From: an uncultured Clostridia bacterium
Lineage (GTDB): Bacteria > Bacillota > Clostridia > Christensenellales > Borkfalkiaceae
Direction: 5' to 3'
Assembly (NCBI GenBank): GCA_944367045.1
Contig: CALVWI010000008.1
Location: 21,482 to 85,481 of the forward strand
DNA length: 64,000 nucleotides
How positions within the stretch are numbered: position 1 is the first letter of the stretch; each line of letters begins with the position of its first letter. This document shows positions 12,092 to 64,000 of this stretch, piece after piece. The notes beneath the pieces are model-generated. The model was not told the origin of the DNA. It did not search any database and saw only the letters and a list, made by a program, of their open reading frames with translations. The position numbers and the translations under genes are program-made.

Positions 12092-13243
12092 GTGAACATT
12101 CTCCACACATCGGATTGGCATATCGGGAAGCGGCTCATGGACAGGGACCGCCTCCCCGAACAGATCGACACCCTCCGCGAGCTTACCAAAATCGCGGAGG
12201 AGAAGGACGTCTCCGTCGTGCTCGTCGCGGGGGACGTGTTCGATACCTATCTGCCGCCCGCAGAGGCGGAGGAGGTCTTCTTCCGTGCCGTCAAGGAACT
12301 GGCGGGGGAGAATCGCGCGGTCGTCGTCATTCCGGGGAACCACGACGACGGCGTCCGTCTCGCAGCGTCCGCACCCATTGCCGAGGAACACGGCGTCTAC
12401 CTCTTCGGGAGCAGGAGCGGGCACTTCGCGCTCGGAAGCTCCCGTCCCGTCTGCGCCGTGGAGGCGGGGGAGAACTACCTCGTCATCGAAAATGAGAGGA
12501 GCGAAAAGCTCTATATCAACGCACTCCCTTACCCCAATGAGGCGCGCCTCAAAGAGGAGAAGACGGAGGAGAGCTATCCCGAGAAGGTCGCGCGCTGGAT
12601 CGCGGGCGGCGAGACGGGCTTTCAAGGCGTCATGCCGCACATTCTCCTTTCTCATCTCTTTGTCGTGGGAGGCAAGACGAGCGAGAGCGAGCGAGGCATC
12701 GACCTCGGCGGAGCGCGTGCCGTGCCCTTATCCCTCTTTGAAAATTTCGACTATGTCGCCCTCGGGCATCTGCATAAACCGCAGAAGATGAAGAACGTCC
12801 GCTACAGCGGCTCTCTTCTGCAATACTCCTTCGACGAGGCGGGCATGGAGAAGTCCGTCGTCCTGCTCGAAACGAAGGGGGAGCGCGTCGAAGTCAGGGA
12901 GACCATTCCGCTGACGTCGGGAAAACAGCTCGTGCGCCTCGAATGCAACGGGGCGGAGGAAGCGGAGGCGCTGCTAAAAAAGTATGAGAATTCCTTCATC
13001 GAACTCACGCTGCACTTGAAGTCGCCGCTTTCGTCGGAGGAGACCAAGAAGCTCCGCGCCGCCAACGAGGGGCTCGTCTCCCTCATCACGCGCGTGGAGG
13101 GGGCTATATCGTCGCCCTTCGTGTCGCGGGCAAAGCTCTCGTCGGAGGAACTCTTCACGCAGTACTATCAGAGCATCTATAACACGGAGCCGTCGGAAGA
13201 GCTCAAGACCGCCTTCCTCGAGCTCTTGGGGGAGGGCGCATGA
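12092..13243 (+). CDS. sbcD: Nuclease SbcCD subunit D (Mre11-type exonuclease)
   Basis: The nuclease subunit of SbcCD, which opens DNA hairpins and processes double-strand ends. The metallophosphoesterase motifs are all present: HTSDWHIGKRL at the N terminus, VLVAGDVFDT, IPGNHDD near residue 85, and LLSHLFVVGG and ALGHLHKPQ later. The GTG at 12092 is chosen because MNILHTSDWH is the family N terminus; an in-frame ATG at 12050 would add 14 residues without homology. It gives 383 residues, normal for the family. The final bases overlap sbcC by 4, so the two subunits are translationally coupled. Confidence 0.93.
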   Translation: MNILHTSDWHIGKRLMDRDRLPEQIDTLRELTKIAEEKDVSVVLVAGDVFDTYLPPAEAEEVFFRAVKELAGENRAVVVIPGNHDDGVRLAASAPIAEEHGVYLFGSRSGHFALGSSRPVCAVEAGENYLVIENERSEKLYINALPYPNEARLKEEKTEESYPEKVARWIAGGETGFQGVMPHILLSHLFVVGGKTSESERGIDLGGARAVPLSLFENFDYVALGHLHKPQKMKNVRYSGSLLQYSFDEAGMEKSVVLLETKGERVEVRETIPLTSGKQLVRLECNGAEEAEALLKKYENSFIELTLHLKSPLSSEETKKLRAANEGLVSLITRVEGAISSPFVSRAKLSSEELFTQYYQSIYNTEPSEELKTAFLELLGEGA

Positions 13244-15816
13244 GACCGCTCCTTCTCGACTTCTGCGGCATCAACTCCTTCTCGGAGCCCGCGCACATCG
13301 ACTTTTCCAAACTGCTCGAATACGGCATCTTCGGCATCTTTGGCGATACGGGTTCGGGCAAGAGCACTATTCTGGACTGCATCGGCTTTGCGCTCTACGG
13401 CAACGTCGCGCGGTCGCGTTCGGGCAGCATCGGCGACGTCATCAACTTTTCCGTCGAGAAAGCCTACGTCAACTTTGAATTTGAGATCTCCTTTGAGGGC
13501 AAGCGGCGCATCTTCCGCGTGGAGCGCGAACTCAAGCGCAAGAATGCGGCGCAGTCCTGCAAGGTCTACGAAAAAACGGGCGACAAGTTCGTCGTCGTCA
13601 AGGACGGCGTCAGAGACTGCAACGCGTTCCTTCTCGAGGTCATCGGCCTTGAACAGCGCGACTTTGAAAAGTGCATCGCCCTCCCGCAGGGGGAGTTCGC
13701 CCAGTTCGTGCGCTCGACGCGTGCGGACAGGCTCAAGCTCGTCTCCCGTCTCTTCGATCTCGAAGAGTACGGCGAACAGCTCGTCAGGCGCGCCAATGCG
13801 GGGTTTGCACAGGCCGAAGAAGCGCTGAGGCTTTCCGAGACCCGCCTCGAACCCTTCGCGGACGTCTCCGAAGAGAGCAACGCCGCCGTTCAAAAGCGGC
13901 TCACGCAACTCGAGGAGGAGGAAACCCGCCATTCCGCGGAGCTTGAAAGGGCACGCGAGGAGGAGAAGCGGCTCTCCGCCCTCTTCGACAGGGCGACGGA
14001 GAAGGCCTCCCTCGACGAAAGAAAACGAAAGCTCGATGAAGTTCGCCCCGAGATGCAGACGCTCGAGAGAGAGCTTCATCGCATCGAACGGGCAGCTTCC
14101 GCCGTCACCGCAGAGCGGGACCGCCTGCGCTCGGAGCGCGACGTGGCGCTCTCCCTTGAAGCGCTCGAGACCGCGAAGAAACGGCTCGTCTCCGCAGGGC
14201 AAAGGAGCGAGGAGCTCTCCCGCTGGGACGAAAGGGCTGCAGACGAGGAACTTTCCGCCCTTCAGACCCGCCTCACGCTCTCGGAAGAGGCGGAAAAGAA
14301 GGAAAAGCGCAGAAAAGAGCTCGAGGAAAAACTTCTCTCCGCCCGCAGCGAGTACGCGGAAGAGAACAAGCAGTTCAAGGGCTTCTCCTACGAAACCGAG
14401 CGCGCCGAACTCGATCAAAAGGTGCAATCTCTCGGCAGCGGGGACTACCTCTCCTTCCTCGAAGAGAAGGGCAAGGCCGCTCTCTTAAAGGGGGAGTACC
14501 GCACCTTTGCGGCGGAGCTTACCGCCGTCTACAGAGCACATCCCGAGGCGGAGGAACTCTCCGCGCTCATCGATAAATACACCGCCCTCTCGGAGGGGAA
14601 GGACGAACTTTCCGCCCTCCGCGAGGAATACGCTTCCCGCGAACGCGAGAGAAAGCAGCTCTCCGAGCAGCTTCTCGAGCTCGAGAAGAAGCACGGACTC
14701 TACAAGGCGCATCTTCAGCTTCTCATGAGCTTGCAGGATAAGGGACTTCGCATCAAGGAGGAACTTGAGAGCATCGCCCCTCCCGCAGGGGAGACCGAGA
14801 GCGCCTCGGACCTTCAGAAGCGCGTCAATGCCAAGAAGCGGGAGCGCGCCGAGATGCTCGCCTCGCGCGAAAGGGCGGGGAAGGAGCTGAGTGCCGCCGA
14901 GACCGCCAAGGCAGCCGCAGAGGACAAGCTCTCCCGCGCAAAGAACGCCCTCAAAGAGGCGGAGGAACGGGCGAAGGAGACGCTTCAAGCCGCAGGGCTT
15001 TCCTTCGCGGAGGAAGCGAAGGCGCTCACTCAAAAGTACGGCGACGGCGCTGAAGCGCGCAAGAAGCTCGAAGGCTTCAAGGCGGAGGATTCGGTCGTCT
15101 CGGCGCGGCTTTCGGATCTCTCGAAAGAGGACCTCTCCGAAGGCACGCGGGAGAGGGTGGAAGCGGCCCGGGCTGCCCTCCTCGAAAAACAGACGAAGTT
15201 CGGCGAGACCGCCAAGGCCGCGGCGCTCGCACGCGAGGAACTCAAGCGCGGCGAGGAAGCGCTCGAAAAGAAGCGCACCCTCGAACAGGAGCATAAAAAG
15301 GCCGTCAAAAAGGCGGAGATCGCCGAAAAGCTCAAAAAGCTCCTCGAGGGCAACAAGTTCATGGATTTCGTGGCGGAGGAGTACCTCCAGAACGTCGCTC
15401 AGAACGCGGGCGGAAGGCTTCTCTCCCTCACGGACGGCAGGTATTTCCTCCGCTATGAGGGCGGCGCGGTCGGCTTCACGGTGGGGGACAACCTCAACGG
15501 CGGCAAGACGCGCGCCGTCTACACACTCTCGGGCGGCGAGACCTTCCTCGTCTCCCTCTCGCTGGCGCTCTCGCTCTCTGCCGAGATCTGTCTCCGCTCC
15601 CTGCGGCCCATCGAGTTCTTCTTCCTCGACGAGGGATTCGGCACCCTCGACGAGCACCTCGTCGACACGGTGATGGACAGCCTCGAACGCCTCAAGAGCG
15701 AGAACTTCTCCATCGGCATCATCTCGCACGTCGAGGAGCTCAAGCACCGCATCGACAAAAAACTCATCGTCAAAAAAGCGACCGAAACGCACGGTTCGCA
15801 GATCATAGCTGAATGA
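13240..15816 (+). CDS. sbcC: Nuclease SbcCD subunit C (Rad50-type ATPase), no zinc hook
   Basis: ATPase partner of SbcD. Walker A is GDTGSGKST at residues 35-43, the ABC signature is LSGGETFLVS and Walker B is FFFLDEGFGTLDE near the C terminus. The region between, about 190-690, is Glu/Lys/Arg-rich coiled coil. At 858 residues it is shorter than the 1000-1150 typical of bacterial SbcC, and the expected apex near residues 505-525 reads SIAPPAGETES with no CxxC; there is no CxxC anywhere in the protein. The arm is therefore short and probably does not use a zinc hook to dimerise. It starts within the sbcD stop codon. Confidence 0.93.
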   Translation: MRPLLLDFCGINSFSEPAHIDFSKLLEYGIFGIFGDTGSGKSTILDCIGFALYGNVARSRSGSIGDVINFSVEKAYVNFEFEISFEGKRRIFRVERELKRKNAAQSCKVYEKTGDKFVVVKDGVRDCNAFLLEVIGLEQRDFEKCIALPQGEFAQFVRSTRADRLKLVSRLFDLEEYGEQLVRRANAGFAQAEEALRLSETRLEPFADVSEESNAAVQKRLTQLEEEETRHSAELERAREEEKRLSALFDRATEKASLDERKRKLDEVRPEMQTLERELHRIERAASAVTAERDRLRSERDVALSLEALETAKKRLVSAGQRSEELSRWDERAADEELSALQTRLTLSEEAEKKEKRRKELEEKLLSARSEYAEENKQFKGFSYETERAELDQKVQSLGSGDYLSFLEEKGKAALLKGEYRTFAAELTAVYRAHPEAEELSALIDKYTALSEGKDELSALREEYASRERERKQLSEQLLELEKKHGLYKAHLQLLMSLQDKGLRIKEELESIAPPAGETESASDLQKRVNAKKRERAEMLASRERAGKELSAAETAKAAAEDKLSRAKNALKEAEERAKETLQAAGLSFAEEAKALTQKYGDGAEARKKLEGFKAEDSVVSARLSDLSKEDLSEGTRERVEAARAALLEKQTKFGETAKAAALAREELKRGEEALEKKRTLEQEHKKAVKKAEIAEKLKKLLEGNKFMDFVAEEYLQNVAQNAGGRLLSLTDGRYFLRYEGGAVGFTVGDNLNGGKTRAVYTLSGGETFLVSLSLALSLSAEICLRSLRPIEFFFLDEGFGTLDEHLVDTVMDSLERLKSENFSIGIISHVEELKHRIDKKLIVKKATETHGSQIIAE

Positions 15817-52062: not shown

Positions 52063-52086
52063 GAAAAATATATCTTGGAGCAACAT

Positions 52087-54402
52087 ATGACCATCAACGG
52101 AACGCGGCTGAAGCCCCTTGAACTTGAAAATGTGCGCATCGAGGACGAGTATCTCCTCAACGCGGTGGAACAGGAAGCGGAGTATCTCACCTCTTTGGAA
52201 GAGGGGCGGCTGCTTGCGGGGTTTTACGAGAACGCGGGTATCAAAACGCCCTATTTGCGCTACGGCGGCTGGGAGAGCGGGCTCATCGGCGGGCATACGC
52301 TCGGCCACTACCTCACGGCCATCGCTCAGATGAGCGTGCAGCCCGCCATCTCCGAGCAGCAGCGCGCCTTCTTCAAAAACCGCTGTGCGCGCATGATAAA
52401 CGCCCTCTCTGAATGTCAGGAGCACGCAAACACGGGCTTTTTGTGGGGCGCACCCATGATCGAGGGCGGTCCCGAGGCGCAGTTCGACCATGTGGAGGAA
52501 GGCAAGCTCAACATCATGACGGAGGCGTGGGTGCCGTGGTATACCATGCATAAAATTCTGCAGGGGATCATCGACGTCTACCGCTTCACGGGCGAAGAGA
52601 CCGCACTCACCGTCTCTAAGTGCCTCGGCGACTGGGTCTTTTCGCGCGTCTCGAAGTGGGACGACGCCCTTGACGAGAAGGTGCTCGCCGTCGAATATGG
52701 CGGCATGAACGATTGCCTCTACGACCTCTATGCGTTCACGGGGGAGGAGAAGTACGCCCTCGCCGCCCACAAGTTCGACGAGGAGCCGTTCTTCGATCGC
52801 ATTTTGAGCGGGGAGAAGGACGTTTTGAAGGGCAAGCACGCCAACACGCAGATCCCCAAAATTTTGGGCGCACTCAACCGCTATCTGACGCTGCACGGGA
52901 AGGTGCTTTCGGGCGAGAAGGTGGACGCGACCCGCTATCTCAACGTCGCCGAGAGCTTCTTCCGCATGGTGCTGGAGCGGCACACCTATGTGACGGGAGG
53001 CAACTCGGAGTGGGAGCACTTCGGGCCCGACTACGTCCTCGACGCTCGCCGCACCAACTGCAACTGCGAGACGTGCAACGCCTATAATATGTTAAAGCTC
53101 GCGCGCGGGCTCTTCTCCGTGACGGGCAACGACTACTATACCGACTACTACGACAACGCCTTCACGAACTCCATTCTGCCCTCGCAAAACCCCGAGACGG
53201 GCATGACGACCTACTTCCAGCCCATGGCGAGCGGCTACTTCAAGGTGTTCTCCCGCCCGTACGACAAGTTCTGGTGTTGCACGGGCAGCGGTATGGAGAG
53301 CTTCTCCAAACTCGGCGACGGCATCGCCTACACGGACGGCACGCGACTCTATCTCGAGACCTACTATTCCGCGCGCCTCACGGCGGGGGTGAGCGAGGTG
53401 GAGATCTCCTGCAATTTCCCGCTCTCGGACAGGGGAGAGGTTAAAGCCCTTCGCGGAGAAACGAAGCTCGCGCTCCGCATTCCCGACTGGGCGGACGGCG
53501 AACCGGAACTCTCCATCGGCGGTAAAAAGCTGCCGCCCCTTGCCGTCAACGACCATATCCTCGTGACCCTTCGGGAGGGGGAGACGCTCACCTTCCGTAT
53601 TCCGCTCACCGTGACCATGCATGGCCTGCCCGACGGCAAGGACGCGTTTGCCTTCCGCTACGGCGGCGCGGTTTTGAGCGCAGACCTCGGCAAAGAGGAC
53701 ATGGAGGAGAAGGAGACGGGTGTGGACGTCACCATTCCCGCAAAGAAGGTGCTCGACAGCGAGCGCATCTACTTCCCGTCGCTCTTTAAGCTCTTCGACC
53801 GTCCGCAGAACTTTTTGGTCCGCGAAGGGGACAAGTTCGTCCTCAAGGGCGGCGACCGTGAATATACCTTCGGCCTGCATTATAAGCGCTACGAGGAGCG
53901 CTACGGCATCTACTTCCGCTTCCGCGAGGGCGAGCGTGAACCGGAGGGGGAGACGCGCACCCCGCTCGATACCGTCCAGCCCGGCTACGGCCAGTACGAG
54001 ACGGACGAGCTGCACGCCCTCCGCGAGAAGGATACCGTGAGCATCACCTCGGAAGGCACTTCCCGCTATGCGCTCCCCGGCGGGTACTTTGAATACGACT
54101 TCCTCGTCGACCCCGACAAGACCTGCTCACTCTCCGTCGAGCTTCTCGCGGCCGACAACGGCAAACCGCTCTTCATCTCCGTCGAGGGGGAGCCGCTCTA
54201 TGCAAACGACTACCTCCGCTACACCGAAGGCGAGGAGAGCTATCGCATCGAGGTGGAGATCCCGAAGGAACTTCTTTCGCGCCATGCCCGCAAAAAGTGC
54301 GTGAAGGGGGAGGAGGTGACCGTGCTTCCCGTCCGCTTTGAGGGTACGAAGGATCGTGAGAGCGCGCGCGTTGCGGAGTTCATTTACCTCTTTGTGAAAT
54401 AA
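52087..54402 (+). CDS. Glycoside hydrolase family 127 (beta-L-arabinofuranosidase type)
   Basis: A 771-residue GH127 (former DUF1680) protein. The (alpha/alpha)6 barrel spans roughly 1-420. The expected zinc-thiolate site is complete: Glu308 in NSEWEHF, Cys325 and Cys327 in NCNCETC, and Cys397-Cys398 in WCCTGSG. Family members release beta-L-arabinofuranose from plant glycoproteins or related sugars. No signal peptide is visible. ATG 52087 follows TTGGAG, itself the site of a rejected TTG start. It is not adjacent to the other glycosidases. Confidence 0.92.
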   Translation: MTINGTRLKPLELENVRIEDEYLLNAVEQEAEYLTSLEEGRLLAGFYENAGIKTPYLRYGGWESGLIGGHTLGHYLTAIAQMSVQPAISEQQRAFFKNRCARMINALSECQEHANTGFLWGAPMIEGGPEAQFDHVEEGKLNIMTEAWVPWYTMHKILQGIIDVYRFTGEETALTVSKCLGDWVFSRVSKWDDALDEKVLAVEYGGMNDCLYDLYAFTGEEKYALAAHKFDEEPFFDRILSGEKDVLKGKHANTQIPKILGALNRYLTLHGKVLSGEKVDATRYLNVAESFFRMVLERHTYVTGGNSEWEHFGPDYVLDARRTNCNCETCNAYNMLKLARGLFSVTGNDYYTDYYDNAFTNSILPSQNPETGMTTYFQPMASGYFKVFSRPYDKFWCCTGSGMESFSKLGDGIAYTDGTRLYLETYYSARLTAGVSEVEISCNFPLSDRGEVKALRGETKLALRIPDWADGEPELSIGGKKLPPLAVNDHILVTLREGETLTFRIPLTVTMHGLPDGKDAFAFRYGGAVLSADLGKEDMEEKETGVDVTIPAKKVLDSERIYFPSLFKLFDRPQNFLVREGDKFVLKGGDREYTFGLHYKRYEERYGIYFRFREGEREPEGETRTPLDTVQPGYGQYETDELHALREKDTVSITSEGTSRYALPGGYFEYDFLVDPDKTCSLSVELLAADNGKPLFISVEGEPLYANDYLRYTEGEESYRIEVEIPKELLSRHARKKCVKGEEVTVLPVRFEGTKDRESARVAEFIYLFVK

Positions 54403-55199: not shown

Positions 55200-56090
55200 A
55201 TGTTCGACGGACGGCTGGAGACATTCATCAAAGTTGCCGAGTGCGGGAGTTTTACCAAGGCGGCGGAGGAACTCTACATCACCCCGACAGCCGTGATGAA
55301 GCAGATAAACGCGCTCGAGGGAGAGATTACAGCAAAGCTCTTCGAGCGCACCAACCACGGCTTAAAGCTCACCAAGGCGGGCGAGAGTTTTTTGGAGGAC
55401 GCGCGCTATCTCCTCGACTACGCCTCGCGCGCCGCCCAAAAGGCGCGGGAGATCGACGAGGGGGAAAACCGCAAGTCCATCCGCATCGGCACCTCGGTGA
55501 TGACGCCTGCGAAGTTCGTCCTCGATGTGTGGTCGCAGATCCAGAGCCGCATGCCGACTTTAAAGATCGAACTCATTCCCTTCGACAACAACCCCGTCAC
55601 TTCGGTGGAGATCTTGAAGAATTTAGGGCGCAACATCGACGTCGTCGCGGGGCTCTATGACGACAATTTTCTCAAAGAGCGGGGCTGTCTTGCGGCGCAT
55701 CTCTACGAAAAACGCATTCTTCTCGCCGTGCCCGTGACGCACGCCCTGAGCGCGGAGCAGCTCATCTCGTGCAGGAGCCTGAAGGGCCGCCGCGTCCTGT
55801 TCATCCGCCGCGGTTGGAACGTTTACATCGATACCCTGCGCGACCGCCTGGAGGCGGCGGGCGTGGAGACCGTCGACTTCCCACAGTTCACCATCAACGC
55901 TTACAACCGCGCCGTCTCGGAGAACATTCCCATCATCACGGTGGAGGGCTGGGAGGACGTGCACCCGCTCCTCAAGATCATCCCCGCCGAGTGGGAGGAC
56001 AGTATTCCCTTCGGCGTGTTCTATTCGCCGAAACCGACGGCGCTCGTTAAAAAGTTCATCGGCATTTTGAGCGAGCTCGCCGCAAACTGA
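55200..56090 (+). CDS. LysR-family transcriptional regulator
   Basis: A 296-residue LysR regulator. The winged helix-turn-helix is at 1-60 (LETFIKVAECGSFTKAAEEL, TPTAVMKQINALE, LFERTNHGLKLTKAG). The effector-binding domain follows from about 90. LysR proteins often control the genes beside them; here the next gene is an aldo/keto reductase about 150 bases downstream, the first of a redox-enzyme run. A strong terminator separates them, so the link is regulatory at most. Confidence 0.92.
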   Translation: MFDGRLETFIKVAECGSFTKAAEELYITPTAVMKQINALEGEITAKLFERTNHGLKLTKAGESFLEDARYLLDYASRAAQKAREIDEGENRKSIRIGTSVMTPAKFVLDVWSQIQSRMPTLKIELIPFDNNPVTSVEILKNLGRNIDVVAGLYDDNFLKERGCLAAHLYEKRILLAVPVTHALSAEQLISCRSLKGRRVLFIRRGWNVYIDTLRDRLEAAGVETVDFPQFTINAYNRAVSENIPIITVEGWEDVHPLLKIIPAEWEDSIPFGVFYSPKPTALVKKFIGILSELAAN

Positions 56091-56238: not shown

Positions 56239-57123
56239 ATGGAATATGTAACGCTTTCCAACGGGGTAAAGATGCCCCAGCTCGGCTACGGGGTGTATCA
56301 GGTGACGCGCGAGGAGTGCGAGCGCTGCGTTTCGGACGCGCTCGCCGCAGGATACAGGCACATCGACACGGCGCAGTCCTACTTCAACGAAGAGGAAGTG
56401 GGAAACGCCATCAAGAAGTCCGGTATTCCCCGCGAGGAACTCTTCGTGACGACCAAGGTGTGGATCGAGCACTACGGCGAAAAGGAGTGCAGAAAGTCCG
56501 TCCTTGAGTCCATGCGCAAACTGCAGATGGACTACATCGACCTCGTGCTCCTGCATCAGCCGTTTTCCGACTACTACGGCGCATGGCGTGCGCTTGAGGG
56601 GCTGTACGCCGAGGGGAAACTTCGGGCCATCGGTGTCTCCAACTTTGCGCCCGACAGGCTCGTCGATTTATGCTCCTTCTCGCGCATCAGGCCGATGGTC
56701 AATCAGGTGGAGACGCACCCGCATGACCAGCAAAAGACGGCGCACGAGTGGATGAAGAAGTACGGCGTCGCGCACGAGGCATGGGCGCCCTTCGGCGAGG
56801 GCAGAGGCGGCCTCTTCACCGACTCCGTCCTCACGAAGATCGGCGAAAAGTACGGCAAGACGACGGCGCAGGTCATGCTCCGCTGGCACCTTCAAAGGGG
56901 CGTCGTCGTCATTCCCAAATCGACGCACAAAGAGCGCATGGAAGAGAACTTCAACGTGTTCGACTTCACCCTTTCGGACGAGGATATGAAGGCGATCGCC
57001 GCGCTCGATAAGGAGCAGTCGTCCTTCTTCTCGCACACCGACCCCGCCACGGTGGAGATGTTCGTGCGCATGGTGGAGGAGCGCCGCGGCAAGAGCAGCG
57101 ACACCGCCAAGAAAAATTGGTAA
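56239..57123 (+). CDS. Aldo/keto reductase (AKR5-like), first of three
   Basis: A 294-residue NADPH-dependent aldo/keto reductase. The catalytic tetrad is complete: Asp43, Tyr48, Lys73 and His106. IPKSTHKERMEENFNVFDF near residue 235 is the coenzyme-binding motif of this group. It reduces aldehydes or ketones to alcohols; substrate unknown. AGGAGG precedes the ATG. Next gene is a flavodoxin lipoprotein 11 bases on. Confidence 0.93.
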   Translation: MEYVTLSNGVKMPQLGYGVYQVTREECERCVSDALAAGYRHIDTAQSYFNEEEVGNAIKKSGIPREELFVTTKVWIEHYGEKECRKSVLESMRKLQMDYIDLVLLHQPFSDYYGAWRALEGLYAEGKLRAIGVSNFAPDRLVDLCSFSRIRPMVNQVETHPHDQQKTAHEWMKKYGVAHEAWAPFGEGRGGLFTDSVLTKIGEKYGKTTAQVMLRWHLQRGVVVIPKSTHKERMEENFNVFDFTLSDEDMKAIAALDKEQSSFFSHTDPATVEMFVRMVEERRGKSSDTAKKNW

Positions 57124-57134
57124 AGGGGGATATT

Positions 57135-57866
57135 ATGAGAAAGTTATTGATCATGATTTTGAGCCTCGTGCTCGCATCGGGCCTTGCGGCACTCGCGGCG
57201 TGCAATTCTGCCGCCGATGACCCTGCCGATGATCCCGTTGACGGCCCCTCGGGCGGCACGCAGACGGGTGAACCCGATGAGCCATCGGAACCGGAAGAAC
57301 CAGACGAGCCCGATGAGCCAAGCGGCGGAGAGGAACAGCCAGATGAACCCGATGAACCCGTGGCGGACGGCAGCGTCCTTGTCGTGTACTTCTCGGCGAC
57401 GGGAAATACGGAACAGGTCGCAAATTACATCGCGGAATACACGGGCGGAGACATCTTCGAGCTCGTTCCCGTCGAGCCCTACACCTCGGCGGACCTGCGC
57501 TGGACGGACGACAATAGCCGCGTCGTGCAGGAATATGCCGAGAAGCAGGCGGGCACGCTTGAGACGGTCGAGCTCGAAGACGTCACGGTGGAGAATTGGG
57601 AGAACTACGACACCGTCTTTTTGGGCTTCCCCATCTGGTGGTATGAGGCGGCTTGGCCTGTCTATGACTTCGTCGAGACCAACGACTTCACGGGAAAAAC
57701 GATTTATACCTTCTGCACGTCTTCGAGCTCGGGCCTCGGGGGCAGCACCGAGGTGCTCGAAGCAATGGCGGGCGGGAACGGTACTTGGCTGGACGGCCGC
57801 AGGTTCCGCTCGAGCGCCTCTCAAAGCGACGTCAAGAGCTGGATCGACACTCTCAACATCATCTGA
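57135..57866 (+). CDS. Lipoprotein flavodoxin (tandem copy 1)
   Basis: A 243-residue exported lipoprotein. The signal peptide ends in the lipobox ALAAC (Cys near residue 23), followed by an acidic proline-rich linker of DEP repeats to about residue 80, then a flavodoxin domain. VVYFSATGNTEQVANYIAE is the FMN phosphate-binding loop. The domain would sit on the outer surface of the membrane. It is a tandem duplicate of the N-terminal half of the next gene: TDDNSRVVQE and RFRSSASQSDV occur in both. The ATG at 57135 follows GGGGGA. Confidence 0.88.
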   Translation: MRKLLIMILSLVLASGLAALAACNSAADDPADDPVDGPSGGTQTGEPDEPSEPEEPDEPDEPSGGEEQPDEPDEPVADGSVLVVYFSATGNTEQVANYIAEYTGGDIFELVPVEPYTSADLRWTDDNSRVVQEYAEKQAGTLETVELEDVTVENWENYDTVFLGFPIWWYEAAWPVYDFVETNDFTGKTIYTFCTSSSSGLGGSTEVLEAMAGGNGTWLDGRRFRSSASQSDVKSWIDTLNII

Positions 57867-57880
57867 AAGGAGAAAGCGCC

Positions 57881-59398
57881 ATGAAAAAGGGTTTGAGCGC
57901 ACTTTTGGCCGCCTGCATCGGCTTGAGCGGCGCGATGGGCCTTGCTGCGTGCAGGGAGAGCGAGCCCATTGGCGACCCCGGTAACGTTCTCGTCGTGTAC
58001 TTTTCGGCAACGGGCAATACCGAGCAGGTCGCAAATTACATCGCAGAGGCGACGGGCGGGGACATCCTCGAGCTCGTGCCCGTCGAGCCCTACACCGCGG
58101 ACGACCTCCGCTGGACGGACGATAATAGCCGCGTCGTGCAGGAACACGAAAACGAGGAACTGCAGAACAGCGTGGAGCTCGTCACCGTCACGCCCGACGG
58201 TTGGGAAAATTACGACACCGTCTTTCTCGGCTATCCCATCTGGTGGGGCATTGCGGCGTGGCCCGTCAACGGCTTCGTGACGGGGAACGACTTTTCGGGC
58301 AAGACGGTCATTCCCTTCTGCACGTCCTCGAGCTCGGGTATCGGCGAAAGCGGCGATCTCCTCACCGACATGGCGGGTACGGGGGAGTGGCTTTCGGGGC
58401 ACAGATTCCGCTCCTCCGCCTCTCAGAGCGATGTCGTGGGGTGGTTAGAAACGCTCGGAAACTTTTCGGGCGGCGATATGGGCAACGCGGGCGGCACGGT
58501 GACCCCTGATCCGGGCGATACGGACGAAGAGCAGCCGGACGGCGGGTATATGCCGCCTCCCGAGACGGGCGACGGCCCTGCGGAGAACGCTCCGACCGCC
58601 GACATCGCCGTTCCCACGCCCGACGTGCGCCAGACCATCCTTTTATGGAACGAGGGCAATATTCCCGCGTATAACGAAAGCTATCAGGCGGCGAGTGCGG
58701 ACGGCCTCGGCTTCATTCCCTACATCGAGAGCTTCCCCGCGCAGGGCGAGGTGAAGGGCGCGGTGCTCATCTGTCCGGGCGGCGCCTTTCAATTCCGCAG
58801 TACGGTGAGCGAGGGGTACAACGTCGCCGAGGAACTCTCCGCGCGCGGCTATCAATGCTTCGTGGTGAGCTACCGCCTTCGCCCCTATTCACAGGAGGTG
58901 AGCGCGCTCGATCTCGCCCGCGCCGTGCGGTACGTCCGCGCCAATGCCGAGGCGTACGGCATCAACGAAAATGACATCGCCGTCGTCGGCTTTTCGGCGG
59001 GCGGCATTCTCTGCGGCGAGCTGCTTCTGCACAGCGATGGCTATCAGCTGCCCACGGAGTCAGACCCCGACTATGTGCCCGACAGCTTGGACTATGTCTC
59101 CGCGGAGGCTTCGGCCATCGGGCATATCTATTCCTTCTACGGGCGGCTGTCCGTTTCGGACAACAATGTGGAGACGCTGCGTGCGGGAAATCTGCCGCCG
59201 ACGTTCTATGCCTACGGCACGCGCGATCCCTTCTATCGCCAATTCATTCAGAATGCCGACGCGGTGCGCGAGGCGGGCGTTGAAGTTGAGGAACACGTCT
59301 TTGAAAACGTCGGGCACGGCTTCGGCGCAGGCAATGCTTCCTGTGACTGGATCCCGTCCTTCGATACCTTTTTAACGAATATCTTTGAAGAAAACTAA
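57881..59398 (+). CDS. Lipoprotein flavodoxin fused to alpha/beta-hydrolase
   Basis: A 505-residue lipoprotein with lipobox GLAAC (Cys near residue 25). Residues 34-190 are a flavodoxin domain (VVYFSATGNTEQVANYIAE) closely similar to the preceding gene. A proline-, glycine- and acid-rich linker (about 195-240) leads to an alpha/beta-hydrolase domain: VLICPGGAFQFRS oxyanion hole, nucleophile in GFSAGG, acid in YGTRDPFY and histidine in VGHGFG, the pattern of acetyl-esterase-type enzymes. The fusion puts a flavin carrier and an esterase on the same surface protein. AAAGGAG lies before the ATG. Confidence 0.9.
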   Translation: MKKGLSALLAACIGLSGAMGLAACRESEPIGDPGNVLVVYFSATGNTEQVANYIAEATGGDILELVPVEPYTADDLRWTDDNSRVVQEHENEELQNSVELVTVTPDGWENYDTVFLGYPIWWGIAAWPVNGFVTGNDFSGKTVIPFCTSSSSGIGESGDLLTDMAGTGEWLSGHRFRSSASQSDVVGWLETLGNFSGGDMGNAGGTVTPDPGDTDEEQPDGGYMPPPETGDGPAENAPTADIAVPTPDVRQTILLWNEGNIPAYNESYQAASADGLGFIPYIESFPAQGEVKGAVLICPGGAFQFRSTVSEGYNVAEELSARGYQCFVVSYRLRPYSQEVSALDLARAVRYVRANAEAYGINENDIAVVGFSAGGILCGELLLHSDGYQLPTESDPDYVPDSLDYVSAEASAIGHIYSFYGRLSVSDNNVETLRAGNLPPTFYAYGTRDPFYRQFIQNADAVREAGVEVEEHVFENVGHGFGAGNASCDWIPSFDTFLTNIFEEN

Positions 59399-59410: not shown

Positions 59411-60262
59411 ATGGAATACGTTTATCTGAACAATGCCGTCAAGATGCCCGCTTTGGGGCTCGGGACCTTTCTGCTCTCCCCCAAGGACGCCGAAAACGCG
59501 ACGTACAGCGCGCTTTTAGGCGGCTATGAGCTCATCGACACGGCGAATGCCTACATGAACGAGCGCGGCGTCGGAAGAGGCATCAAGCGCAGCGGCGTGG
59601 AACGGGATAAGATCTTCCTTTCGACCAAGCTGTGGCCCTCCGAATACGAGGACGGCGATATCGCCATCGACGATACGCTGAGGCGGCTTGATACGGACTA
59701 TATTGACCTTCTCATTCTCCACCAACCCGTGGGCGAATTCCAAAAGGCCTACAAGGCGATGGAGCGGGCATTTAAGGCGGGCAAGGTGCGGGCACTCGGC
59801 CTTTCCAACTTCCCCGAAGAACTCATTCAGACCATTGTGGACGACTGCGAGGTCATGCCGCAGATCGTGCAGGTGGAGGCGCACCCGTACTTCCCGCAGA
59901 CGGCACTCAAAGAGTACTTGAAAAAGTACGACATCAAGCTCATGGCGTGGTACCCGCTGGGTCATGGCGACAAGGCGCTCTTGAAGGAGCCCGTGTTCGG
60001 GGACCTCGCCCAAAAGTACGGCAGGACGCCCGCGCAGATCATTTTGCGCTGGCACGTTGAGAGCGGCAACGTCGTCATCCCCGGTTCTAAAAATCCCGAC
60101 CACATCGCCGCCAACCTCGACATCTTCGATTTCTCGCTCACCGACGAGGAGATGGGGGAGATCAATAAGCTCGACAAGAACACGCGCTACTACAATATGC
60201 CCTTGGAGCAGGCGGCAAAGACGTATCTTTCTATCCGCCCCGACTTCAACGCGCAGGAGTGA
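59411..60262 (+). CDS. Aldo/keto reductase (AKR5-like), second of three
   Basis: A 283-residue aldo/keto reductase similar to the one at 56239. The tetrad is Asp43, Tyr48, Lys73 and His104; VIPGSKNPDHIAANLDIFDF is the coenzyme-binding motif. It differs from the first in the substrate-loop regions, so it is a diverged paralogue. AAGGAGG lies before the ATG, and the Fe-S flavodoxin-family gene follows 3 bases after the stop. Confidence 0.92.
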   Translation: MEYVYLNNAVKMPALGLGTFLLSPKDAENATYSALLGGYELIDTANAYMNERGVGRGIKRSGVERDKIFLSTKLWPSEYEDGDIAIDDTLRRLDTDYIDLLILHQPVGEFQKAYKAMERAFKAGKVRALGLSNFPEELIQTIVDDCEVMPQIVQVEAHPYFPQTALKEYLKKYDIKLMAWYPLGHGDKALLKEPVFGDLAQKYGRTPAQIILRWHVESGNVVIPGSKNPDHIAANLDIFDFSLTDEEMGEINKLDKNTRYYNMPLEQAAKTYLSIRPDFNAQE

Positions 60263-60265
60263 CAC

Positions 60266-60802
60266 ATGAAAAAGGTTTTGATTTTATCGGGCAGTCCGCG
60301 GAAGGGCGGCAATTCGGATATCCTTTGCGATGAGTTCGCAAAGGGCGCAAGAGAGGCAGGCAACGAGGTGGAGAAGATCCGCGTCGCTGAGAAGAAGATC
60401 GGCTATTGCCGCGCCTGCTACTACTGCCGCGACCACGGCGGCGAGTGTGCCGTCAAGGACGACATGGCGGAAGTGCTGCAAAAGATGATCGACGCGGACG
60501 TCATCGTGCTCGCAAGCCCCGTCTACTTCTATTCCATCGACGCGCAGCTCAAAGCTGTCATCGACCGCACGGTTGCGCGTTGGCTGGAAGTCAAGAACAA
60601 GGACTTCTACTACATTGCGACCTGTGCCGAGGACGACAAGGGCGCGACGCTCACCACGCTCGACTGCTTCCGCGGCTATGCAGAGTGCGTGGAAGGCGCG
60701 AAGGAGTGCGGCGTCATCTACGGCACGGGCGTGTACGAAAAGGGCAAAATTACCGATACGCCCGCCTATCGAAAGGCCTACGAGATGGGCAGGAGCGTTT
60801 AA
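60266..60802 (+). CDS. Iron-sulfur flavoprotein-like NADPH-dependent FMN reductase family protein
   Basis: A 178-residue cytoplasmic flavodoxin-fold protein. ILSGSPRKGGNSDIL is the FMN-binding loop and Cys48-x2-Cys51-x2-Cys54-x6-Cys61 matches the compact cysteine motif of Isf-type iron-sulfur flavoproteins, which carry one 4Fe-4S next to FMN. LASPVYFYSIDAQLKAVIDR completes the flavin site. Such proteins move electrons from ferredoxin or reduce quinones and FMN. Coupled to both flanking aldo/keto reductase genes (gaps of 3 and 1 base). Confidence 0.9.
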   Translation: MKKVLILSGSPRKGGNSDILCDEFAKGAREAGNEVEKIRVAEKKIGYCRACYYCRDHGGECAVKDDMAEVLQKMIDADVIVLASPVYFYSIDAQLKAVIDRTVARWLEVKNKDFYYIATCAEDDKGATLTTLDCFRGYAECVEGAKECGVIYGTGVYEKGKITDTPAYRKAYEMGRSV

Positions 60803-60803
60803 A

Positions 60804-61784
60804 ATGAGACAAGTTGTTTTAGGGAAAGATCTGCGTGTCTCCGCGATGGGCCTCGGGTGCATGGGCTTTTCGCATGCGTGCGGACTGCCCACCGAGGAAG
60901 GCGAGGCCGTCAAAGCAATCCGCGCGGCGTATGACGCGGGCTATACCTTCTTCGATACCGCCGAGTGTTACATCGGCACGAATGCGGACGGCACGCCCTC
61001 CCTCAACGAGGAGCTCGTCGGAAAGGCACTCAAAGAGGTGCGCGGGAATGTCGTCATTGCGACCAAGTTCGGCGTGAAGCACGAAGGCGTTCGCCTCCAC
61101 ATGGACAGCCGCCCCGAAGTCATCCGCCGCTCCGTCGAAGGCAGCTTAAAGCGGCTGAATACCGACCACATCGACCTCTACTATCAGCACCGCATCGATC
61201 CGAATGTCCCTGCGGAGGAAGTCGCCTCCGTCATGGCGGAGCTCATCAAAGAGGGCAAGATCACCCATTGGGGCATCTCGGAAACGGACGAGGAGTACCT
61301 TCGCCGCGCGCACGCCGTCTGCTCCGTGACTGCCATTCAGAACAGGTATTCGATGATGTATCGCAGTTACGAGCGCCTGTTTCCTGTATTGGAGGAGCTG
61401 AAGGTGGGCTTTGTCGCCTTTTCACCGCTTGCAAACGGGGTGCTCTCCGCCGCCTACAATGCAGAGAGCAAGTTCAACGAGGCGGGCGATTACCGCGCGA
61501 ATATGCCGCAGTTTCAGCCGCAGGCATACGCCGAAAACGCGCAGCTCTTCGGGCTCTTACAGGAACTTGCAGAGCGCCATCACGCAACGCCCGCGCAAAT
61601 TTCCCTCGCATGGATGATGAATAAGCAGCCACATGTCGTGCCCATTCCCGGGTCCCGCAAGATCGCGCGCATCCGCGAGAATGCGAGGGCGGCTGAGATC
61701 AAAATGACGAAAGAGGAAGTCACCCGCATCGACGAGGCACTAAGCGTCGTGAAGATGTCGGGCGTGTTTGGCGGTCATAGGTAA
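60804..61784 (+). CDS. Aldo/keto reductase (AKR13-like), third of three
   Basis: A 326-residue aldo/keto reductase of a different subgroup from the other two. Asp51 and Tyr56 (FFDTAECY) and the Lys in IATKFGVK are tetrad members, and the His is in LYYQHRID. VVPIPGSRKIARIRENARAA near the C terminus is the coenzyme motif. The tetrad is intact. AGGAG precedes the ATG, which lies one base after the previous stop. MATE exporter follows 2 bases later. Confidence 0.92.
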   Translation: MRQVVLGKDLRVSAMGLGCMGFSHACGLPTEEGEAVKAIRAAYDAGYTFFDTAECYIGTNADGTPSLNEELVGKALKEVRGNVVIATKFGVKHEGVRLHMDSRPEVIRRSVEGSLKRLNTDHIDLYYQHRIDPNVPAEEVASVMAELIKEGKITHWGISETDEEYLRRAHAVCSVTAIQNRYSMMYRSYERLFPVLEELKVGFVAFSPLANGVLSAAYNAESKFNEAGDYRANMPQFQPQAYAENAQLFGLLQELAERHHATPAQISLAWMMNKQPHVVPIPGSRKIARIRENARAAEIKMTKEEVTRIDEALSVVKMSGVFGGHR

Positions 61785-61786
61785 AC

Positions 61787-63160
61787 ATGGAGCTATCGGA
61801 AAGGGAACTGTTTGAAAAGGTACCCGTTCCCCGCGCCGTCGCGCGCCTTATCGTACCGACCATCATCAGCCAGATCGTCACCGTCATCTACAACCTCGCG
61901 GATACCTTCTTCATCGGTAGGATCGGCGACCCCGCCATGGTCGCGGGCGCGACGCTCGTCTCCCCGTGGTTCAATCTTCTGACGGCGCTCTCCAACCTCG
62001 TCGGCATCGGTGGGCTGTCCGTCATGGATAAGCTGCTCGGCATGCAGAGGCTCGAAGAAGTCAAGAAGGTATCTTCCTTCAGCTTTTGGGCGGGCGTCGT
62101 CATTGCCGCACTGTTCTCGGGGCTGACCTTCGTCTTTTCGGACGGCCTTTTAGCCCTTCTCAGCATTGCGGGCGGGGGAGGGGACGACGGCGCCTTGGGC
62201 TATGCTTACACCTATCTATTATGGACGGTGATAATAGGCGGCGTTCCCACCATGCTCGCGATGACACTCGCGCACTTTCTGCGCGGCGAGGGACAGGCAA
62301 AGAAGGCGAGCGCGGGCATGATGCTCGGCGGCATTTTGAATATCGGGTTAGACCCATTATTCATGTTCGCTTTCCGGATGGGCTTTGTCGGCGCGGGCAT
62401 TGCCACGGCGCTTTCCAACTTTATCTCCTTTATATTTCTGCTCGCAGTCTTTCTCGCGGGGAGGAAGAAGTCTGAAATGTCGCTCTCGCCCAGATATTTT
62501 TCCTTCCGCTATGCTCTCAAGGTGCTCTCCGTGGGGCTGTCCGCGGCCCTTACGACGCTGCTTGCCAACGTGTCGTTCATGGTCATCAACATTCTCTCCT
62601 ACGGCTACGGCACGCAGGCGGTGTCGGCGTACGGCATCGTCAAGCGGCTCGATCAGATCCCGCTCGGAATAAGCCTCGGGCTTTCGCAGGGCGTCATGCC
62701 GCTCATTGCCTACAACTACGGCTCGGGCGATTATACCCGCCTTAAAAAAGTGTCCGTCTTTTCGTGGATCCTCGCCGCGTGCATGACGGCGGTGTGCGTG
62801 GTGCTGTTTGAGACGCTCGCGCCCTATATCGCGCGGCTGATGCTCGACGACGAGGAGACGGTGCCGCTCACGACTAATTTTTTGCGCATCGCCTGCACGG
62901 CCGTGCCGTTCACATCCATCAACGCACTCGTCATGTATTTCTTCCAGGCGATGGGCAAGGGCACGCAGGCGACCATCCTCTCCGTCTGCCGCCAGGGTGC
63001 GCTCAACATTCCCATTCTCTTTCTGATGAACGCGCTCGTCGGTCTCTATGGCATGATTTGGGTGCAGCTCATCATCGAGCTCATCATGCTTCCGTTCATG
63101 CTGGGAATGTATCTTGCCACAATGAAAAAGCTCAACGCCAAAAGGGAGGAGGGAGGTTGA
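61787..63160 (+). CDS. MATE-family efflux transporter
   Basis: A 457-residue integral membrane protein with 12 predicted segments and the MATE pattern PTIISQIVTVIYNLADTFFIG near the N terminus and a second matching half around SFMVINILSYGYGTQAVSAY. MATE proteins export drugs or metabolites using sodium or proton gradients. Placement after three reductases suggests export of a product or detoxified compound, which is inference. Confidence 0.93.
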   Translation: MELSERELFEKVPVPRAVARLIVPTIISQIVTVIYNLADTFFIGRIGDPAMVAGATLVSPWFNLLTALSNLVGIGGLSVMDKLLGMQRLEEVKKVSSFSFWAGVVIAALFSGLTFVFSDGLLALLSIAGGGGDDGALGYAYTYLLWTVIIGGVPTMLAMTLAHFLRGEGQAKKASAGMMLGGILNIGLDPLFMFAFRMGFVGAGIATALSNFISFIFLLAVFLAGRKKSEMSLSPRYFSFRYALKVLSVGLSAALTTLLANVSFMVINILSYGYGTQAVSAYGIVKRLDQIPLGISLGLSQGVMPLIAYNYGSGDYTRLKKVSVFSWILAACMTAVCVVLFETLAPYIARLMLDDEETVPLTTNFLRIACTAVPFTSINALVMYFFQAMGKGTQATILSVCRQGALNIPILFLMNALVGLYGMIWVQLIIELIMLPFMLGMYLATMKKLNAKREEGG

Positions 63161-63167
63161 TTATATT

Positions 63168-64000
63168 ATGAAGCAATTTATCGCGGCGCTCTGCGCCATC
63201 GCTTTTTTGTGCGTCGCCGCTTTTAGCGGTTGTGCGCCCGCGGACAGGGAAAATTCAACCGAACAGAACGCTTCGATCGGGGATATTACCGCACCGACCG
63301 ACGACATCACGCCGGGCGCGGAGAGCTACCGCGGGTTTACGCTGGACAGCGTCTATCACTCGGACGAGGGCGAAATTCATTACAACGTCTATTTTCCCGA
63401 AAGTTACGACGGCACGGCGGCTTACGCGCTCTTCATGACGCTTCCCGGCTACGAGGGACTTTACCGCTTCGGCGCGGGGGCAAACCTTCGCTCGGAGGAA
63501 TTCGCCTTCGAGGCGCAGAACTACATCGAAGATATGATCGTCCTCGCTCCGCAGCTCAATGACTGGGGTATGACTTCGGCGCGGCAGGCAGTGGCGCTCC
63601 TTGACTACTTTCTTGCGCACTACGACATCGACCCCGCGCGCATCTACGCCGAGGGGTTTTCGGGCGGCGGGGAGACGCTCTCATTCGTCATGCAGCTTGC
63701 GCCCGAACGCTTTGCGGCCGTCCTGCACGTAAATTCTGTGTGGGACGGGGAGCTCGCTCCGCTCATTCAAAGCCGCACGCCCGTCTATCTCGTCATCGGC
63801 GAGAGCGACGAATACTACGGCTCTGCACGCATTTCGGCAACTTATCAGGAGATCGTCTCCCTGTATGAGGCCGAGGGGCTTTCCGAGGAGGAGATCGACG
63901 AGCTCGTCGTCCTCGATATCAAAGACGCTGCCTATTTTGAGGCGGTCGGGGCACAAAATCAGCACAGCGGCGGCGGGTACTACGCCTTCGACGAGGAGAT
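63168..64000 (+). CDS. Lipoprotein alpha/beta-hydrolase (3' cut by window)
   Basis: The frame starts at ATG 63168, 11 bases after GGGAGG, and remains open to the window end, giving 277 residues. A signal peptide ends in the lipobox FSGC (Cys near 22). An alpha/beta-hydrolase follows: MTLPGYEGLYRF, nucleophile in AEGFSGGGETLSF, acid candidate in IGESDEYYG, and NQHSGGGYYAF likely carrying the histidine. It resembles secreted polyhydroxybutyrate-depolymerase-like or feruloyl-esterase-type enzymes (PET-hydrolase-like) rather than the fused hydrolase domain at 58.6 kb. Likely an extracellular esterase. Confidence 0.85.
   Translation, partial: MKQFIAALCAIAFLCVAAFSGCAPADRENSTEQNASIGDITAPTDDITPGAESYRGFTLDSVYHSDEGEIHYNVYFPESYDGTAAYALFMTLPGYEGLYRFGAGANLRSEEFAFEAQNYIEDMIVLAPQLNDWGMTSARQAVALLDYFLAHYDIDPARIYAEGFSGGGETLSFVMQLAPERFAAVLHVNSVWDGELAPLIQSRTPVYLVIGESDEYYGSARISATYQEIVSLYEAEGLSEEEIDELVVLDIKDAAYFEAVGAQNQHSGGGYYAFDEE

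Follow-up and report, generated by a model that had tools for sequence, protein, structure and literature searches.

Adjacent predicted lipoprotein flavodoxins, one joined to an esterase-type hydrolase, in a gene cluster of an uncultured Clostridia bacterium

Two genes for predicted lipoprotein flavodoxins and their domains

The window, that is, the whole stretch of 64,000 nucleotides analysed here, comes from an uncultured Clostridia bacterium (contig CALVWI010000008.1) and carries two neighbouring genes, A and B, which are the subject of this report. Both lie on the + strand, as do all cluster features named below; 14 bases separate them, and each has its own ribosome-binding-site-like sequence ahead of its ATG. 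By translation and Pfam, gene A (57135..57866, 243 aa) is predicted to encode a flavodoxin of the flavin mononucleotide (FMN) type, family Flavodoxin_4, and gene B (57881..59398, 505 aa) a paralogue of that flavodoxin which continues in frame into a putative serine esterase of the Abhydrolase_3/BD-FAE kind. Both products are predicted surface lipoproteins in one cluster headed by a LysR-type regulator gene. The order of this cluster is LysR, the aldo-keto reductase (AKR) gene AKRa, A, B, AKRb, an FMN reductase, AKRc, a MATE exporter and, truncated where the contig ends, a hydrolase that is the third predicted lipoprotein.

Reading of the sequence predicts a signal peptide and lipobox at both N-termini. 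Protein A starts with a signal peptide and the lipobox LAA-C (57135..57203; Cys23), followed by an acidic proline-rich linker and the Flavodoxin_4 domain (residues 81-239, 57375..57851). Protein B comprises a signal peptide with the same lipobox (57881..57952; Cys24), a short linker, a Flavodoxin_4 domain (residues 35-191, 57983..58453), a second linker (residues 192-248, 58454..58624) and an alpha/beta-hydrolase of esterase type (residues 249-505, 58625..59395). The second linker contains the stretch DGGYMPPPETGDGPAE, common to a locus of another metagenome-assembled genome (L038) and, one change apart, to a locus of a same-genus genome (L039).

Pfam assigns both flavodoxin domains to PF12682, with 127.1 bits for A and 125.2 bits for B against a cut-off of 24. 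An earlier note on this DNA had described the two genes as adjacent lipoproteins with nearly identical flavodoxin domains. The adjacency, the family and the predicted lipoprotein signals hold, and the two motifs it quoted, VVYFSATGNTEQVANYIAE and RFRSSASQSDV, are present in both translations. “Nearly identical” is too strong, since the domains share 71% identity over 159 codons, and they are not sisters in the tree described below.

The FMN loops (the P-loop SATGNT, residues 42-47 of B; a WW loop with Trp121; and a CTSSSSG loop) align with those of the Bacteroides structures 3klb (an FMN complex), 4ici and 4j8p, the PDB relatives of the A domain, whose chains of 159-171 residues bear no fused enzyme. 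Thr47 is kept in 85/87 and Trp121 in 87/87 lipoprotein-class domains, the division into signalled and unsignalled domains being automatic and rough, with at least L044 (cut), L057 and L111 misfiled. The FMN-loop residues of A and B are largely conserved and FMN binding is predicted; a lack of such residues was an objection that the earlier note had raised against itself. In 4ici and 4j8p the residue numbers begin at 32 and at 23. An N-terminus, perhaps a signal peptide, may therefore have been removed from these Bacteroides proteins, and they may also be exported. A further observation concerns a cysteine in the third FMN loop (Cys147 of B, 58319-58321; Cys194 of A, 57714-57716, the sole cysteine of A apart from that of the lipobox). 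It is present in 73/87 lipoprotein-class domains; by the same rough split the position is Ala in 30/35 unsignalled domains, as it is in 3klb, 4ici and 4j8p. The cysteine is a candidate for helping to hold the flavin.

Extracytosolic Flavodoxin_4 proteins with an ApbE-motif insert, covalently flavinylated as demonstrated by experiment, were described in mSystems in 2024 (PMC11334425). According to that paper, signs of flavinylation are found in extracytosolic flavodoxins and not in cytosolic ones, and a flavinylated Flavodoxin_4 is often encoded in clusters that contain apbE and DUF4405. The window proteins resemble this class in belonging to PF12682, in their mostly Firmicutes distribution and in a proposed link to envelope electron transfer; for A and B an extracytosolic location is predicted from the signal peptide and lipobox. 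A and B differ from the class in having neither the insertion between strand 1 and helix 1 nor the motif [S/T]GA[S/T], and ApbE is encoded outside the window cluster. No strict match to the motif is present in A or B; the sole loose match lies in the linker of A, none inside the domains, and flavinylation of A or B was ruled out on this ground. Since the window copies have neither insert nor motif, A and B are predicted to be a non-covalent variant of surface flavodoxin. ApbE-like motifs do appear in flavodoxins of three related loci, as a strict match in L042 (DAISGAS) and as loose ones in L041 and L052/L057.

The hydrolase half of B matches Abhydrolase_3 (PF07859) with 56.3 bits (cut-off 25) and BD-FAE (PF20434) with 47.6 bits (cut-off 26.8). 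As the earlier note stated, B runs in frame into a full alpha/beta-hydrolase, in which Ser372, Asp449, His479 and the oxyanion GG motif (residues 300-301) are intact. In the alignment of this subfamily, made without L046 and L047 and with the L118 triad examined apart, Ser and GG are found in 14/14 rows, and Asp and His in the 13/13 rows that reach them. The subfamily is sparse, occurring (E <= 1e-40, own genome counted) in 5/396 genomes of the order and 2/398 of the phylum. B shares its fold, its Ser-Asp-His triad and its above-cut-off Pfam matches with the BD-FAE feruloyl/acetylxylan esterase (PMC8165983) and with the Abhydrolase_3 esterases 6a6o, 7bfr and 4q3k. It is unlike them in its low sequence identity, in being a predicted lipoprotein and in its fusion to a flavodoxin.

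Joining of flavodoxin and hydrolase in related loci

Sixteen hydrolase-bearing loci, among them loci from metagenome assemblies and one (L042) from the cultured relative Catenibacillus scindens DSM 106146, were compared: the window, L038-L043, L046, L054-L057, L098, L099, L108 and L118, with L099 and L108 being separate contigs of a single genome. In 14/16 a flavodoxin-type domain is fused to the hydrolase or encoded by the next gene, and in L046 and L056 it lies within a few genes. The window has a flavodoxin followed by a flavodoxin-hydrolase. In L038 all three domains form a single chain, flavodoxin-flavodoxin-hydrolase, so the search for this architecture in other genomes, which the earlier note had proposed, gave a match. 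L039 encodes flavodoxin, flavodoxin and hydrolase as three separate lipoproteins of the same operon, keeps the LysR-to-MATE order of the window and has a hydrolase 90% identical. In L054, L055, L098, L099 and L108 a separate hydrolase lipoprotein adjoins flavodoxins whose fusion partner is a set of leucine-rich repeats (LRRs), another flavodoxin or an AKR.

The separate genes of L039 could suggest that a sequencing or assembly error had joined two genes in the window. This is highly improbable, and it was rejected. The frame between the domains of B is open, with no signal peptide visible by eye, the hydrolase is under purifying selection, and related joins occur in L038, L118 and L040-L043. 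Because L038, an independent assembly, has the same kind of join, the one in B is not a matter of chance, and the frame artefact that the earlier note had considered is excluded by L038 together with the six loci with a degenerate flavodoxin described below.

In a tree of 122 flavodoxin domains, whose bootstrap is not fully settled, A and B belong to a group of 19 rows supported at 100/100. Loci that bear the hydrolase supply 15 of these rows, and the other four (L044, L045, L060, L061) stem from loci whose examined piece lacks it; L054, L099 and L108 have flavodoxins of different types. A forms a pair with the middle domain of L038 (support 100/99) and B stands outside that pair, and for this reason a recent tandem duplication of A into B was rejected. 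The pairing also implies that the joins in L038 and the window used different paralogues, or that one was replaced after the join. The simplest history for B, as far as these genomes suggest, would be the joining of two neighbouring lipoprotein genes that are separate in the same-genus relative.

In L040-L043, L057 and L118 (6/16 loci) the same hydrolase, triad intact, is fused to a degenerate flavodoxin that lacks the SATGNT phosphate loop. Profile comparison, with an alignment built from L040-L043, aligns this domain to flavodoxin with a probability of 95.8. The PDB matches listed span nearly always the hydrolase half alone, the degenerate flavodoxin not having been searched as a model of its own. 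These loci bear on the proposal of the earlier note that the fusion serves flavin-dependent reduction of an ester-linked substrate, in which case the esterase would free or bind the substrate for reduction by the FMN on the same chain. B keeps both its FMN loops and its catalytic triad, and the pairing is the same in L038, both of which speak for such direct coupling. It is nevertheless quite improbable: six relatives have lost the FMN loop and kept the hydrolase triad, the parts are separate proteins in L039, and serine esterases are not known to need a redox cofactor. Because the fused flavodoxin has decayed in these loci, flavin chemistry on the ester probably does not take place.

The fusion habit reaches beyond the hydrolase. 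PF12682 is present in 90/101 genomes of the window's genus. Among the matches listed, 49 fused flavodoxin-type proteins were counted, window B included and the later addition L118 not, in loci fetched mainly for their long open frames, so these counts are not frequencies. The 49 divide into 31 with BspA-type LRRs, 8 with an aldo-keto reductase, 3 flavodoxin-flavodoxin, 2 flavodoxin-hydrolase and 5 degenerate flavodoxin-hydrolase proteins. By our own simple lipobox rule, 44/49 pass; L050 and L108 are cut at the 5' end, L066 and L072 look lipoprotein-like by eye, and L070 is the exception. A second Flavodoxin_4 class, unsignalled and about 160 aa long, looks cytosolic.

The extracellular flavodoxin domains might be mainly binding or docking modules, for flavin capture or as a protein-protein plug, rather than electron carriers. 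The degenerate flavodoxins retained in six loci and the 31/49 fused proteins with LRR_5, often with Flg_new surface repeats, are consistent with this. The non-degenerate lipoprotein class keeps the main FMN-loop residues, and the ApbE-like motif at three loci recalls the class for which PMC11334425 showed flavinylation by experiment; both speak against this reading, which we consider unlikely.

The flavodoxin-AKR lipoproteins include one of the same genome as the window (contig C2, L058 10701-12167) and others in L064, L068, L072, L088, L094 and L095. Where aligned (L058, L064, L068), they keep intact the AKR Asp-Tyr-Lys-His tetrad and the C-terminal nucleotide-site motif, which we take to serve catalysis and nucleotide binding. 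Such a protein is predicted to place a nicotinamide-dependent enzyme outside the membrane, a location that is not easily explained. One doubtful extension is that in this Clostridia lineage the flavodoxin has become an exchangeable outside-membrane plug with non-covalent FMN, repeatedly fused to esterases, to surface repeats and to AKRs whose NADP(H)-binding and catalytic residues are kept. The result would be an assembly for redox chemistry and hydrolysis at the surface, where the NADP(H) held by an exported AKR might even be recycled by reduced flavodoxin.

Possible electron transfer in the envelope and the rest of the cluster

DUF4405 cytochrome genes occur in or near two homologous loci, L054 (8565-9257) and L041 (1051-1779). 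In L054 the gene lies directly inside the cluster; in L041 it stands beside a motif-bearing flavodoxin, and the flavodoxin that belongs to the hydrolase cluster follows about 4 kb later. DUF4405 here accompanies lipoprotein flavodoxins, comparable to the clusters of PMC11334425. With the ApbE-like motifs in relatives, these loci make the window cluster look like a relative of the ApbE/DUF4405 electron-transfer type. The suggestion of the earlier note that electrons are delivered to the cell surface is a plausible setting, given also that Rnf and ApbE are encoded in the window's own genome. L054 also contains a Cyclophil_like2 lipoprotein, a flavin-reductase-like gene and a RibD_C gene.

The best explanation, to which we give a probability of roughly 45%, is that fusion brings a surface esterase close to an electron-carrier system of the envelope. 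The flavodoxins of A and B would carry electrons in the envelope with non-covalently bound FMN, and a membrane donor, Rnf in this genome and a DUF4405 cytochrome in some relatives, would supply them. The esterase, by analogy with BD-FAE, may act outside the cell on an acyl ester of acetyl or hydroxycinnamoyl type and cut it; once imported, the products might be processed by the FMN reductase and the aldo-keto reductases in the cytosol. The fusion would hold the esterase beside the flavodoxins by co-location or docking, a matter of proximity, the flavin itself not acting on the ester.

The remaining genes of the cluster bear on another account. The LysR-type regulator (55200..56090; Pfam HTH_1 and LysR_substrate), whose homologues head the clusters of L039, L054, L061 and L099, is followed by AKRa (56239..57123; Pfam Aldo_ket_red), DkgA-like and without signal peptide, for which the NCBIfam DkgA model gives 274 bits, below its cut-off of 425; the AKRs at this position in L038 and L039 are 91% and 89% identical. 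Downstream of B lie AKRb (59411..60262; Pfam; no signal peptide), 85% identical to its L039 counterpart at the same position, an NADPH-dependent FMN reductase family protein (60266..60802; Pfam FMN_red, 88.6 bits; no signal peptide), AKRc (60804..61784; Pfam, 250.5 bits) and the MATE-family exporter (61787..63160; Pfam MatE), the last with counterparts in the clusters of L039, L040, L041, L042, L057 and L118. The third lipoprotein (63168..64000, cut by the window and contig end; lipobox FSG-C by sequence reading) is an alpha/beta-hydrolase of Peptidase_S9 type with GFSGGG.

These genes could form a LysR-controlled operon against carbonyl or electrophile stress, similar to yqhD-dkgA of E. coli, with AKRs, FMN reductase, MATE and the flavodoxins and esterases at the surface acting to detoxify reactive carbonyls, quinones or esters. 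The presence of AKRa, AKRb (DkgA-like), AKRc (methylglyoxal-reductase-like), FMN_red and MATE in one cluster suits such an operon, and so do alcohol-dehydrogenase homologues in L040-L043, L056 and L057, confirmed by Pfam as Fe-ADH in L040 only. The NCBIfam matches lie under their cut-offs, and a stress operon alone leaves unexplained why flavodoxins and esterases are lipoproteins and repeatedly fused. We consider it possible, though on the unlikely side.

Several points weigh against co-location with an electron-carrier system. DUF4405 was found in 0/101 genomes of the window's genus, and a DUF4405 cytochrome was thereby ruled out as donor there. The sole ApbE match of the window's own genome lies on contig C10 near Rnf genes, not in the window cluster, and these two facts make the electron donor here a guess. 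MATE, AKRs and LysR would also suit a cytosolic carbonyl-stress operon. The ester substrate and the esterase activity of B are predictions, and in the AlphaFold2 (AF2) model of the window protein the hydrolase half is poor (ten-residue means 35-88). Two FMN-loop positions are variable in the lipoprotein class, by the rough split mentioned (Trp122 in 64/87 domains, Gly153 in 49/87), and retention of FMN outside the cell without the flavinylation motif is unexplained. Finally, L047 (Geofilum), which stands outside the 16 loci, has a related but more distant hydrolase, internally repeated and rearranged, with AKR genes nearby and no flavodoxin match in the 12.8 kb piece.

Two other candidates were set aside. 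For FMN_bind as carrier, the window's genome yields a single weak match, which falls within the run of Rnf genes; the frame examined at that place has no Pfam match at 1e-5. The MATE protein was considered as a flavin exporter, as Shewanella Bfe is; its NCBIfam matches are confined to MepA and other MATE models, all below cut-offs.

With regard to novelty, the earlier note regarded the architecture as the strongest candidate for something undescribed in the window. This does not hold for the surface flavodoxin, as extracytosolic flavinylated Flavodoxin_4 has already been reported (PMC11334425). It may stand for the combination, in that no flavodoxin-esterase or flavodoxin-AKR lipoprotein was found in the open-access literature searched, mainly at title/abstract level. 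The words esterase, hydrolase, aldo, lipoprotein and fusion are absent from the main text of PMC11334425. Extracytosolic Flavodoxin_4 is thus a known kind, and the enzyme-fused branch without flavinylation motif seems new. The window family shows a large branch of this sort, whose fusion partners are esterases, aldo-keto reductases and surface repeats of the LRR type. It predicts partners for surface electron transfer in Clostridia, offers concrete proteins for probing carrier function, and points to a little-studied set of enzymes, redox and digestive, that would be kept together on the outer side of the cell membrane.

Neighbouring genes and further fusions

Upstream of the cluster lies a gene for a GH127 beta-L-arabinofuranosidase (52075-54402), suggestive beside a feruloyl-esterase-like protein. 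A rubrerythrin gene sits between it and LysR, and among the open frames of the other panel loci the GH127 gene has no match at 1e-10. Its membership in the cluster is therefore not shown, nor is that of rubrerythrin, and an arabinoxylan role was not adopted.

In L039, a homologue of the third lipoprotein hydrolase (12522-13829) follows the MATE and FMN_red genes, and the LysR gene (3671-4726) is split into two frames (124 and 218 aa), perhaps by an assembly frameshift. In L046 (6330-6881) only a short piece of the hydrolase gene is left, close to a gene for a flavodoxin-flavodoxin lipoprotein, and the hydrolase gene therefore looks broken. L044 (2111-3223) encodes an aldo-keto reductase that is itself a predicted lipoprotein (lipobox FAA-C), with no flavodoxin domain. 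In L070 (5525-7333) an Amidohydro_2 domain precedes LRR-flavodoxin in one frame without signal peptide, either real or an assembly chimera. Lipoproteins combining a Flg_new repeat, BspA-type LRR and flavodoxin are common in the window's genus (L063 5988-7781, with similar frames in L062-L093, L097 and L103), and the window's own genome encodes a further lipoprotein flavodoxin (L059).
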